A stretch of DNA of 64,000 nt. Origin: Dictyobacter aurantiacus (GTDB lineage: Bacteria > Chloroflexota > Ktedonobacteria > Ktedonobacterales > Ktedonobacteraceae). The stretch's first letter is position 1; each line of letters starts with the position of its first letter. Below are positions 96-25,362 of the stretch, piece after piece. The notes beneath the pieces were generated by a model. It was given only the letters and a program-made list of their open reading frames with translations, was not told the DNA's origin and searched no databases. Location of the stretch: the NCBI RefSeq assembly GCF_003967515.1, contig NZ_BIFQ01000001.1, positions 5,952,001 through 6,016,000 on the forward strand. The letters run 5' to 3'. The translations under genes were made by a program, and so were the position numbers.

Positions 96-1727
<1,632 letters not shown>

Positions 1728-12302: not shown

Positions 12303-12490
12303 AGTGCCTGGGCACAGGCCGCTGCGCGGCAAGCCGGGGCAAGCCCGGCACCTACGGGGGATCGTGTGCGCTCGGGTACGAGCCGCTGTGCGGCAAGCCG
12401 GGGCAAGCCCGGCACCTACGGGGGATCGTGTGCGCTCGGGTACGAGCCGCTGCGCGGCAAGCCGGGGCAAGCCCGGCACCTACGGGGGGG
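12303..12490. repeat. Tandem REP array (family A, three units)
   Basis: Three direct copies of about 66 bp. Each contains GCCGCTGCGCGGC (hairpin), AAGCCGGGGCAAGCCCGGC (hairpin), ACCTACGGGGG, and GATCGTGTGCGCTCGGGTACGA as linker. Unlike a CRISPR array, the whole unit repeats and there are no unique spacers. Several reading frames stay open through it only because of the repeat. Confidence 0.85.
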
Positions 12491-20820: not shown

Positions 20821-20862
20821 TGAATCATAATATAAATGCAGAATGCAGCGGAGGGAGAGGCT

Positions 20863-21282
20863 ATGGGGGCCACACTTGAGAATCTGGCGCTGGCCATTAA
20901 GGGGATGCAGTATCGGCATCATCGCACGCTTGATGCGAAGCTGATGCCGCTGGGGATTACGCTTGTGCAGTGGGATGCGTTGCGTGCGATCAGCCGTAAT
21001 CCAGATGCGTCGTCGCACCGGCTGGCGCAGCTGACATTTCAGACCGACCAATCCTTTGGCGCCCTGGCGGGCCGGCTGCTGGCGCACGGATGGATTGAGC
21101 GTATCAGTGGACCCGGCCGGGCGATCCGCCATCGCATTACGCCTGCCGGAGAGGCGATCCTGCACGAAGGGTTTGGCATCTACAATGAGGTGATCGCGCA
21201 GTCATTCGCGCCACTTTCGCCGGCGGAACGCGATACTTTGTACGACCTGCTGACGCGTTTGTTGGAAGGAGCTGGCGAATAG
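20863..21282 (+). CDS. MarR-family transcriptional regulator
   Basis: A 139-residue winged-helix regulator with the recognition region SSHRLAQLTFQTDQSFGALAGRLLAHGWIER followed by the wing GPGRAIRHRITPAG. The dimerisation helices lie at both ends. I chose ATG 20863 because GGAGGGAG precedes it; an in-frame ATG at 20836 lacks a site. A palindrome overlaps its promoter. The next gene, for the large metallo-beta-lactamase protein, is 306 bases downstream behind a REP, so cotranscription is doubtful and the target is unknown. Confidence 0.88.
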   Translation: MGATLENLALAIKGMQYRHHRTLDAKLMPLGITLVQWDALRAISRNPDASSHRLAQLTFQTDQSFGALAGRLLAHGWIERISGPGRAIRHRITPAGEAILHEGFGIYNEVIAQSFAPLSPAERDTLYDLLTRLLEGAGE

Positions 21283-21295
21283 AGAGGGAGATGGT

Positions 21296-21370
21296 ATCGC
21301 TGGTGGAAGGTGCGTAACGGGGGAGGGGCCGCTGCGCGGCCAAGCCGGGGCAAGCCCGGCACCTACGGAA
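21296..21370. repeat. REP-like hairpin (family A)
   Basis: GTATCGCTGGTGGAAGGTGCG, GCCGCTGCGCGGC and AAGCCGGGGCAAGCCCGGC-ACCTACGG in family A order. The remaining 21371-21588 stretch before the next gene shows no reading frame or signal I can support. Confidence 0.75.
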
Positions 21371-21588: not shown

Positions 21589-24500
21589 ATGCAGGTTATT
21601 TTTGCTGGCGGTGCTGCCGGGGTGGGGGCGAGCTGCGTGGCGATCGAGATCGCGGGGCAGTGGATTGTGGTTGATGCCGGGGTGCGGGTGGATCGGTCGG
21701 CGGATCCGTTGCCGGACCTGGCGCTGCTGGAGGGGAAGGATGTGCGGGCGATCTTCGTGACGCACGCGCACGCGGACCACATTGGGGCGCTGCCGTTGCT
21801 GCACCGGGCATTTCCGAGCGCGCCTATTTATACGTCGCGGGCCACGCATCTGCTGATGGAGATCATGCTGGCCGACGCGCTGAAGATCATGAACAAGCGC
21901 GCGGTTGAAGAGATGGAGATCCCGCTCTATCCAGCGGTCCTGGTAGGGAGCATGCTGAGCCGGGTGAGGCCGATTCCGGTAGGCGAGAACTGCACGGTGG
22001 CGCAGCTGCCGGGGGTCACCATTCACACCAGCCGGGCGGGGCATATCGCGGGCGCTATGAGCCTGGGCTTCAGCAGCCAGCAGGAGAGCATCGTGGTGTC
22101 AGGAGACCTGAGTCTGACTCCGCAACGGACCGTGCTGGGAGCGGTGCCGCCGGAGATCGAGCGGCCCGACTTACTAATCCTGGAATCAACCTATGGCGCC
22201 CGGCTGCATCCCAATCGACAGGCGGAAGAGCAGCGCATGGCCGAGGCGGTGGCCGAAGGGCTGAAGAGCGGACACGTATTGTTGCCCTGCTTTGGTCTGG
22301 GACGTGGACAGGAGATCCTGCTGCTGCTGCAGGCGATGCAGGAGCAAGGGGTAGTGCCGATCTTCCCCATCTACGTCGATGGGCTGGTGCGGCGCGTCTG
22401 CACGGCCTATCAGCTGATGCCCGAAGCCCTGACGCCACGACTGGGGAGGCAGATTCGCAAGGGCTTCCTGCCCTTTCAAGGCGACAATGTCAGTTTTGTG
22501 CGCGACGCCAGGGAGCGGCAGACGATCCTGGATGGTCCCCCCGCCTGTATCATCGCCAGCTCAGGCATGCTGACCGGTGGTCCCAGCGCCTGGTACGCCG
22601 CCCGGCTGGCCAGCAATCCCAACGCCTCCATCCTGATCACTGGCTACCAGGACGAAGAATCGCCGGGCAAGCGGCTGCTGGACCTGGCCGAAAACAAGAA
22701 AGAGACGCTGGAACTTGAGGACCAGCAGATCGCGGTCCAGTGTACGGTGGCCAAGTACAGCCTGTCAGCGCACGCCGATGGAGGGGAGCTGGCCTCGTAC
22801 GCGGCGCATCTCAAGCCAAAACGCGTGGCGCTGGTGCACGGTGATGACGACGCCCGGCGCGCCCTGCAGACCCTGTTGGAGCAGAGCGAGGTTCTCTTGC
22901 CGCGCAATGGCGAGACCCTGGATCTGAGCGCGCGGCAGAAGAAGAAACTGGCGGTTGAGCCTGCGCCAGTGGTTGAGATGGTCATCGAGCCCGAAAGCCT
23001 GCCGTATGGGATTGGCGAGCCGGATGGCATCTTCAACGCCTCCAACCTGGAACAGCTCTGGCGTGCCCTGGAGCACGTCCCCTCGTACCAGGTGGTGACG
23101 GTGCGCGACCTTGTCAACGTCTGGTATGGTGAGCGCGCCATCCCCGAGCACGCCATGTGGCTTTACGACGTCCTGGAAGAAGAGCAGCCCTACGACGAGC
23201 CATATTTTATCCCCGCCGGCGAGATCGCTGAAGCCTACTATGTGAGGCATACGGAGGAGGACGAGCAGGAAGACCGCCTGCGCCAGCTGGTCGGACGCAT
23301 CATCCTGCTGCGCACCAATCCATCCGCCTCCAAGCCGGTGCTATGCCGGGCCATCGCTGCCCGCGAGACCCTGCGTGTCCTCTTCCCACGCGGCGAAGCG
23401 AATGATCGCACGCGCTTCCCCCTGAGATCTTTGATCGAGGTGGTTGGACGCCTGCCCTATGAGGAAGGGTTAAGCGAGAAGGAGACGCTGACCAGCTGCG
23501 TGCGCAACGCGCGCAGGATACGCCGGGGGCTCTCGGCCCATGAACTGGCCCGCAGCTGCCAGCCAGACGAAAGCTATACCCTGACTGATCTGTGTGAGCT
23601 AGCCGGGGTCTCACAGCACAAGATAGAGGAACGACTGGCGATCGCCAAGCTGGTGCAGCAGCATCCCCGCCTCTTCGAGCAGCTCGACGACCTGGTAGAG
23701 GGGTCTGGCCCGGTCCACTACGGGCTGGCGCCGACGTGGAGTGAGGCCCTGACCGAACCCGAACAGCGCGAACGGCCCGACCAGAACTGGATCCTCACCA
23801 CCATCGAGCGTTATATAGGAACGCCATCCGACATGGTGCGGCGCAGCGTCGATGGCGAGAGCGGAGACGTCACCCTGACCTTCATCTATCCCGAGGGAGC
23901 CTGGGAGCGCTATCACGAACGGCTGGAGGCCGCCGCCGAAGAGACCAGTGTCAACATCATCATCTCCCCGCACACGCCATTGGGAGAGTTGAGCAAGCTC
24001 GTCCTGCAGATGCTGCCCGAGGGCCTCAGCGCCCAGGGCAATCCCTCCATCTTTGTGGAGCAGCGCGTGATTCGCTTCACCTGTTCGGGGCAGGCGAGCG
24101 AGGAAGAGCTGGAAGCGGCCCAGCAGCGTGTCCTGAAAGAGACCGGCTGGCAGCTGGAGGTGGCTGGCCTCAAGGTCGGTGGAGAGCGATCCATGAAATC
24201 CCCAGAGAGCGTTCCAACCAGTAGCGCACCGGTTGGGCCAGTGAGAAGCGGCGGCGCGCCCGTACAGGAGCAACAGGCGATCAGCTATGCGCGCACGCTA
24301 TTGAGTGGACTGGCTGGCTTTCTCAAGGTTGGGATGGACAAGGCCAACTATGTGCTGCGGGCACGCTTCGAATTTCCCGAGGTCGCGCAGCAGCGCTATG
24401 GAGCCATCTTCCAGCAGATCGAAGAGAGCACCGGCTGGACCGTCCAGATCTATCCGCTGACGCCGAGCCAGGAGGCGCTGGTCGCCATGGCGCACAGCAT

Positions 24501-25221
24501 GCTACCGGATGGACTGGAAGCCCTCGGGCGTCCCTCCATCTACTGGGACCGCAACACCGTAGGCGTGCTCTGCAAAGGGAGCGCCGAGGTCGAAGCGGTC
24601 TACGAGGCGCAGCGACAGTTCGCGGCCGAGACGGCCTGGACGCTCGAAATGCAGGGCATGACCCTGCAGAGCGGCCCCATCTCCAAGGACGGTCGTCAGC
24701 TGGAGCCAGAGCTGTCCCCTAATCAGGAGCAGACGGTAGAAGAGCAGACGCAGGAAGCGAGCCCAATGCTGGTTGAGGAGGATCCCGGTGCTCGCGTCTC
24801 CCAGGTGCAGGCGATGGCCAAAGCCAGCGAGCTACTCAGCGACGCCGAAGACCTGTACCAGATCGGCGTGGATGCCAGGCGCGGTTGCCTATGGCTGCAC
24901 TTCTACTTTCCACAGGGGGCCCGTGTACGCTACGCGCAGCGCTTCCTGCAGATCAAAGAACAGACCGGCTGGGGCGTTGAGCTCCACGAGCGCGTCCACG
25001 TGAAGGCCCTCATCAACACCGCCCGCCGACTGATCCCGATCGACGCCAGGATCATTGGCACGCCCCAGATCGATCATGGGCGGCAGCGCATCATCTTCAC
25101 CGGCAACGGCGTCATGAGCCAGCAGGCCAAAGATGACGCGCGCAGCACTTTCGAGGCCGCCACCGGATGGGAGCTTGTGCTGCGGGTGGGCGCGCCCGAA
25201 GAGAGCGGCAACGCGTTATAA
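21589..25221 (+). CDS. Beta-CASP metallo-beta-lactamase protein with triplicated C-terminal domain
   Basis: A 1210-residue protein. Residues 1-450 are a complete CPSF73/RNase J-type nuclease core: D28 in VVDAGV, H59-x-H61-x-D63-H64, His in SRAGHIAGA, Asp in VVSGDLS, then beta-CASP motifs Glu in LESTYG, His in SLSAHAD and His in ALVHGDD. All metal and catalytic residues are present, so RNA (or DNA) cleavage is likely. Residues 490-740 are a helical, winged-helix-like region. The rest holds three copies of a 105-115-residue domain (about 752-862, 912-1027, 1091-1204), each with a [FY]xFP/YPEG strand, an ETxW segment, a GxPxI strand and a closing TGW/TAW. It may bind RNA as KH domains do in archaeal CPSF homologues. 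No close neighbour suggests a partner. Confidence 0.85.
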   Translation: MQVIFAGGAAGVGASCVAIEIAGQWIVVDAGVRVDRSADPLPDLALLEGKDVRAIFVTHAHADHIGALPLLHRAFPSAPIYTSRATHLLMEIMLADALKIMNKRAVEEMEIPLYPAVLVGSMLSRVRPIPVGENCTVAQLPGVTIHTSRAGHIAGAMSLGFSSQQESIVVSGDLSLTPQRTVLGAVPPEIERPDLLILESTYGARLHPNRQAEEQRMAEAVAEGLKSGHVLLPCFGLGRGQEILLLLQAMQEQGVVPIFPIYVDGLVRRVCTAYQLMPEALTPRLGRQIRKGFLPFQGDNVSFVRDARERQTILDGPPACIIASSGMLTGGPSAWYAARLASNPNASILITGYQDEESPGKRLLDLAENKKETLELEDQQIAVQCTVAKYSLSAHADGGELASYAAHLKPKRVALVHGDDDARRALQTLLEQSEVLLPRNGETLDLSARQKKKLAVEPAPVVEMVIEPESLPYGIGEPDGIFNASNLEQLWRALEHVPSYQVVTVRDLVNVWYGERAIPEHAMWLYDVLEEEQPYDEPYFIPAGEIAEAYYVRHTEEDEQEDRLRQLVGRIILLRTNPSASKPVLCRAIAARETLRVLFPRGEANDRTRFPLRSLIEVVGRLPYEEGLSEKETLTSCVRNARRIRRGLSAHELARSCQPDESYTLTDLCELAGVSQHKIEERLAIAKLVQQHPRLFEQLDDLVEGSGPVHYGLAPTWSEALTEPEQRERPDQNWILTTIERYIGTPSDMVRRSVDGESGDVTLTFIYPEGAWERYHERLEAAAEETSVNIIISPHTPLGELSKLVLQMLPEGLSAQGNPSIFVEQRVIRFTCSGQASEEELEAAQQRVLKETGWQLEVAGLKVGGERSMKSPESVPTSSAPVGPVRSGGAPVQEQQAISYARTLLSGLAGFLKVGMDKANYVLRARFEFPEVAQQRYGAIFQQIEESTGWTVQIYPLTPSQEALVAMAHSMLPDGLEALGRPSIYWDRNTVGVLCKGSAEVEAVYEAQRQFAAETAWTLEMQGMTLQSGPISKDGRQLEPELSPNQEQTVEEQTQEASPMLVEEDPGARVSQVQAMAKASELLSDAEDLYQIGVDARRGCLWLHFYFPQGARVRYAQRFLQIKEQTGWGVELHERVHVKALINTARRLIPIDARIIGTPQIDHGRQRIIFTGNGVMSQQAKDDARSTFEAATGWELVLRVGAPEESGNAL

Positions 25222-25227
25222 GCGCCC

Positions 25228-25362
25228 GCGAGGGGCCGCATCGCAAAGCTCGCGACCCAAGCCGGGGCAAGCCCGGCACCTCCGGTGGGAAGTGGGTGGC
25301 CGGGGACGGGGTCGCCTTCGGCTCCAAGCCGGGGCAAGCCCGGCACCTACAGGGAGAGAACG
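25228..25362. repeat. Two REP-like hairpins (family A)
   Basis: Two copies of AAGCCGGGGCAAGCCCGGC-ACCT (25258-25280 and 25328-25350), each preceded by a different GC-rich hairpin. They fill the space between the convergent genes, and the TAG stop of the leftward lipoprotein lies in the second copy. Confidence 0.8.

Follow-up and report, generated by a model that had tools for sequence, protein, structure and literature searches.

The described nucleases closest to the protein reported here are archaeal and eukaryotic. The eukaryotic enzymes CPSF73 and INTS11 have the same MBL/beta-CASP core, with a His residue in motif C, but lack a KH array; their C-terminal parts bind protein partners. Archaeal aCPSF1/FttA (MTH1203, PH1404, TIGR03675, arCOG00543) joins this type of core to tandem KH type II modules, a single pair named KHa and KHb, placed at the N terminus. 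A 2011 study regarded the KH pair of aCPSF1 as restricted to MTH1203 and its orthologues; KHa, which lacks the GXXG motif, binds RNA poorly and may be structural, and residues K115 and Y116 in the loop of MTH1203 KHb are proposed RNA contacts (PMC3095777). Isolated KH domains of aCPSF1 bind terminator U-tracts, and these domains confer the specificity for terminators (PMC8716108). Within the openly accessible journal literature that was searched we found archaeal work only, and no bacterial beta-CASP protein with KH domains.

Here we describe a gene of the soil bacterium Dictyobacter aurantiacus (Chloroflexota, Ktedonobacteria) whose product carries a core of this type at the N terminus, starting at residue 1-5, and three pairs of KH-like modules at the C terminus (residues 734-1202). 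It lies in the window, the whole stretch of 64,000 nucleotides that was analysed, as one unbroken open reading frame whose GC3 is of coding type (0.73-0.81) and uniform over the full length (Table 1). A sister Dictyobacter species has a full-length orthologue with 79% identity, and the matches listed include a Dictyobacter vulcani homologue with 78% identity.

Table 1. Features of the nuclease gene; positions are those of the window.
Feature	Position	Strand	Evidence
Whole ORF, beta-CASP nuclease with C-terminal KH-like array, 1210 aa	21589..25221	+	Frame, GC3, 79% orthologue
MBL/beta-CASP core, aa 1-450	21589..22938	+	Pfam, NCBIfam, PDB sequences, invariant columns
HAHADH metal-binding motif 2, aa 59-64	21763..21780	+	Sequence, family-invariant columns
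Beta-Casp domain, aa 241-363	22309..22677	+	Pfam
First winged-helix-like segment, aa ~484-552	23038..23244	+	AlphaFold m287fa36d5554 secondary structure, pLDDT ~70-89; no fold match of its own
Small beta-barrel (Tudor/SH3-like), aa ~559-623	23263..23457	+	AlphaFold; VIA Z 6.9 to PHF1 Tudor, a weak match
MarR-like winged helix, aa ~646-726	23524..23766	+	AlphaFold; VIA Z 8.1 to MarR/SarZ proteins
R1, tandem KH type II-like pair, aa 734-862, acidic	23788..24174	+	HMM E 1.6e-43; AlphaFold; Foldseek to FttA/aCPSF1 KH
R2, tandem KH type II-like pair, aa 896-1025	24274..24663	+	HMM E 1.7e-42; AlphaFold pLDDT 97.2; Foldseek, VIA
R2 half A, aa ~897-955; R2 half B, aa ~960-1022			
Acidic low-complexity linker, R2 to R3	24664..24810	+	pI 4.05
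R3, tandem KH type II-like pair, aa 1075-1202, basic, pI ~8-9	24811..25194	+	HMM E 4.5e-42; charge; fold by homology to R1/R2

The Pfam domains Lactamase_B, Beta-Casp and RMMBL were all found within residues 12-432, and Pfam recognised no domain beyond residue 432. The seven metal and beta-CASP motifs are conserved: D29, H59/H61/D63/H64, H152, D173, E199 (motif A), H395 (motif B) and H417 (motif C) are all present and invariant in the family. A His in motif C is the residue typical of enzymes acting on RNA (PMC3095777, citing Callebaut 2002). Judged by homology, the protein is almost certainly a beta-CASP ribonuclease, with predicted activity. A previous interpretation of this DNA, hereafter the sequence-only reading, had proposed a complete core of CPSF73/RNase J type. 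Completeness and RNA type were borne out, as was the likeness to CPSF73: the nearest PDB sequences are those of aCPSF1/FttA, INTS11 and CPSF73, and the best NCBIfam model for the core is aCPSF1/FttA, at 269.5 bits with a curated cut-off of 580.2. The RNase J part of the proposal did not hold. Although RNase J1/J2 have the MBL/beta-CASP fold in common with the protein, model TIGR00649 matches residues 3-95 only, with 55.1 bits against a cut-off of 400, and membership was rejected on this score; the earlier statement that the tail is not that of RNase J was right. An RNase J-like gene with a product of about 561 aa is present elsewhere in the same genome. Membership in type VII CRISPR Cas14, which has a beta-CASP core as well, was likewise rejected: model NF045584 scores 214.9 bits over residues 1-453, below its cut-off of 800, and the match ends where the tail begins. 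The bacterial TTHA0252-type RNase matches at 134 bits but consists of the core only (431 aa).

A midpoint-rooted maximum-likelihood tree of 50 cores, some inner forks of which are weakly settled, placed the KH-tailed family in a bacterial cluster (split 100/97). This cluster stands apart from archaeal aCPSF1, from eukaryotic CPSF73/INTS11 and from the core-only enzymes of Chloroflexota and Patescibacteria. The side of the KH-tailed family also took in the tailless paralogues, together with two long-branch rows.

The segment between core and tail (residues 450-733), previously taken for a helical region, was modelled by AlphaFold as a winged helix, a small beta-barrel and a MarR-like winged helix. 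This segment is extra with respect to aCPSF1/FttA. In some family members, those of the Oscillochloris type with about 850 aa, neither the barrel nor the second winged helix is present.

The repeats of the tail are visible only by HMM; a BLASTP comparison of the tail with itself detected none. An HMM seeded with the three tail segments converged to a unit of 121 positions and found exactly three copies in the tail, at residues 738-857, 900-1020 and 1079-1198 (all with E <1e-41). Each unit of about 120 residues is made of two related halves (hhalign 92.9%), most of which end in TG[WFY]; the tail therefore has six modules. The sequence-only reading had thus counted the diverged copies correctly, while making them 105-115 residues long and undivided. 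Of the acidic or low-complexity linkers that it saw between them, the second is acidic and the first is not. Searches of Pfam, NCBIfam and PDB sequences with single repeats or with the repeat profile, a check proposed at the time, recognised no family, in line with the description of the tail as unassigned. TY-Chap3 (E 0.03), GSPE_N1E (E 0.005) and others were isolated weak matches scattered over unrelated families and were dropped. The tail repeat, which neither Pfam nor NCBIfam contains, adds a domain family to a nuclease family central to the formation of transcript 3' ends.

Structure prediction and comparison with KH folds, also proposed earlier, were carried out on R2. The AlphaFold model, built with 38 aligned repeats, had a mean pLDDT of 97.2 and contained two KH type II-like modules. 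In half A the elements follow the KH order, with a helix kink at the position of the loop; in half B two helices are fused and there is an extra short strand. A Foldseek search of R2 against all PDB chains gave eight matches with E <0.001: archaeal NusA, NusA2, five chains of aCPSF1/FttA and one ribosomal protein. The top matches, archaeal NusA and aCPSF1/FttA, had E values of about 1e-4 and a probability of 1.00, and the part of aCPSF1/FttA that was matched is its N-terminal KH domains. When R1 was modelled in a separate job together with the middle segment, aCPSF1/FttA and NusA again headed the Foldseek matches. VIA placed 66 residues of half B on FttA residues 76-143 (KHb) and 62 residues of half A on the S3 KH domain, at 2.4 A in both cases; the Z scores of the halves (6.8-7.3) fall short of 8, in a range also attained by common folds, and are weak by themselves. 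As a whole the R2 pair superposed poorly on KHa-KHb (rmsd 8.9 A over 122 residues), and the two modules must therefore be packed unlike those of the archaeal pair. Across the family a GXXG loop was found in 0 of 115 halves A and in 1 of 115 halves B. Since this hallmark of KH type II domains is missing, we call the modules KH-like; it is also missing from certain domains accepted as KH, aCPSF1 KHa among them (PMC3095777).

Tail repeats were found in 29 of 400 Chloroflexota genomes (about 7%). Wherever the frame was long enough they were fused to the nuclease core, several frames ending at contig ends or masked stretches. Beyond the Chloroflexota, a search by whole-protein alignment, which sets a lower bound to the spread, found repeats in at least Lentibacillus, Virgibacillus, Aquibacillus, Halalkalibacter, Bacillus niameyensis and Sporolactobacillus (about 910 aa, two units), in at least one Bacillota MAG, and in at least one MAG of Bryobacter (Acidobacteriota), which has one unit. 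D. aurantiacus itself has two further core paralogues. One (~G000:C1:1787320-1791530, minus strand; L002), of 1404 aa, bears four complete units, with half of another at the C terminus, and the other (~G000:C2:625370-627820, minus strand; L003), of 815 aa, is free of KH-like repeats and constitutes a natural tailless control. To the eye, the latter seems to have kept the middle segment. Long paralogues of the L002 type also occur in the sister species examined. Thus modules of this kind stand, in at least three phyla, at the end opposite to that in aCPSF1, in 1 to 4.5 pairs and without GXXG, which provides a natural test of what KH domains do in these enzymes; the differing copy numbers and the tailless paralogue of the same genome are at hand for it. 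Among viral sequences 14 matches to the core were found; the repeat HMM detected no repeats in the best of them.

The relation of the tail to KHb was analysed by profile comparison. Half A aligned with the KHb part of an aCPSF1 KH profile, made from only four archaeal KHa-KHb sequences taken from PDB chains and found with an approximate consensus query, without gaps over 49-50 columns and with a probability of 81-95% depending on direction and trimming. Shuffled controls stayed far lower, with maxima of 9.4% (150 shuffles of the complete KHa-KHb profile) and 6% (200 shuffles of KHb), and none of 200 column shuffles of KHb attained the score of the true pair. Slices of the beta-CASP core, used as a profile control, gave less than 1%, and Chloroflexota profiles of NusA and S3 gave 3.2% and 0.9% with half A; as a yardstick, KHb scored 90% with the S3 profile. 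Half A thus resembles KHb specifically, in profile as well as in fold. NusA has the same tandem KH type II pair and, in its archaeal form, gave the top Foldseek match, but it shows no profile similarity to half A and carries no nuclease. In the alignment, the GKYG loop of MTH1203 KHb faces QRYG of R2, and an R/K-Y/H pair occupies the place of Lys115-Tyr116 in 66 of 115 repeats. Half B alone produced no match with the aCPSF1 KH profile; it is assigned to KH because of its fold and its similarity to half A.

One could imagine that the tail is a convergent alpha/beta fold which resembles KHb by chance. The tail has no HMMER match to Pfam KH models or PDB chains, the VIA scores are modest, MamB/MamM domains and ring proteins of type III secretion systems also appear among the Foldseek and VIA matches, and half B by itself is silent in the profile comparison. 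Against this, two independently modelled repeats brought the same KH proteins to the top, the profile alignment spans a full module without gaps while shuffles fall far short of it, and both the element order and the helix kink are in place. We consider convergence very improbable. The tail modules probably share a KH lineage with archaeal KHb, having been placed at the opposite end of the enzyme and multiplied to three pairs; common descent followed by relocation and multiplication is the simplest reading. The suggestion that the tail might be an independent solution for RNA binding is, accordingly, not supported by these comparisons.

As to function, we lean towards a beta-CASP ribonuclease in which the three pairs of KH-like modules, six in all, without GXXG and most likely derived from the KHb lineage, form a C-terminal array holding RNA or an RNP. 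The core would cut single-stranded RNA, probably as an endonuclease like CPSF73 and aCPSF1, and the winged helix-barrel-winged helix segment would join the array to it. Most likely the array would grip the substrate RNA or RNP flexibly at several points and so select or position it. Most RNA contacts would fall to the last pair, which is more basic, and the first, acidic pair would serve mainly for structure or docking. Binding of RNA by the tail is plausible, and RNA holding is our best guess in view of the KH fold, the basic-aromatic pair in the loop, the more basic last unit and the binding of U-tracts by the KH domains of aCPSF1.

The loss of GXXG and the acidity of R1 and R2 (pI 4.7-4.9) count against the RNA-holding role; the packing that departs from KHa-KHb, the modest VIA scores, the four-sequence basis of the aCPSF1 KH profile and the lack of conserved neighbours that might point to a pathway weigh against the picture as a whole. 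The main rival of RNA holding is that the KH-like modules have lost nucleic-acid binding and serve as a scaffold for dimerisation or protein docking, as proposed for aCPSF1 KHa. Every half A has lost the GXXG, as has KHa with its weak RNA binding and perhaps structural role (PMC3095777), and a copy number varying from 1 to 4.5 pairs is what scaffolds would display. Charge can be read both ways. It forms a gradient along the tail, since in 41 of 47 KH-tailed proteins the acidity of the first repeat exceeds that of the last (mean net charge over the family -5.4 for the first unit and -0.4 for the last), which speaks for a scaffold; yet many members have a basic last pair (pI 8-10), and over half of the copies retain the basic-aromatic loop pair, both of which speak against it. 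On balance a scaffold appears unlikely, if far from negligible. Much less credence goes to a defence or mobile-element nuclease degrading foreign RNA. Relatives of the core do occur on plasmids, two of them, in Klebsiella and Priestia, within operon-like runs with Hsp70-family proteins. However, the plasmid relatives listed match the core only (residues 1-503 at most), no PADLOC model matches the 1210-aa protein and a homologue from Bacilli obtains just a weak generic MBL score, the KH-tailed genes have no conserved neighbours, and the gene is maintained across sister species; we regard such a role as very improbable. In principle the enzyme could be the working bacterial counterpart of FttA/aCPSF1, an endonuclease that recognises transcript 3' regions through its relocated, multiplied non-GXXG KH array and processes or terminates transcripts in Chloroflexota and Bacilli. 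At present this must be deemed a long shot.

The two plasmid runs deserve a separate mention. In Klebsiella grimontii plasmid pNY3A (L215:4924-12533) a related beta-CASP gene stands first in an operon-like run that also encodes Hsp70-family proteins, and in Priestia megaterium plasmid pNCT2_2 (L217:5422-12279) another heads such a run, here with Hsp70-family proteins and a HEAT-repeat protein. Recurring in two phyla, this arrangement looks like a mobile, possibly defence-type cassette.

No neighbour gene was conserved across 27 KH-tailed loci, only some close relatives sharing neighbours. In the window, the gene immediately upstream, which shares the strand of the nuclease gene (20836-21282, plus), codes for a MarR-like regulator, an assignment made by eye; it is not conserved beside other members of the nuclease family. 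One sister-species orthologue (G004:C1:5953869-5957482) is split into two overlapping frames with a break near residue 333, a frameshift or a sequencing error. Finally, a 25-base intergenic element, CCAAGCCGGGGCAAGCCCGGCACCT, flanks the nuclease gene on both sides (21340-21364, 25257-25281 and 25324-25348) and recurs near 12329-12481. It has 17 exact copies genome-wide, and six copies with at most one mismatch in the window, where none would be expected by chance.
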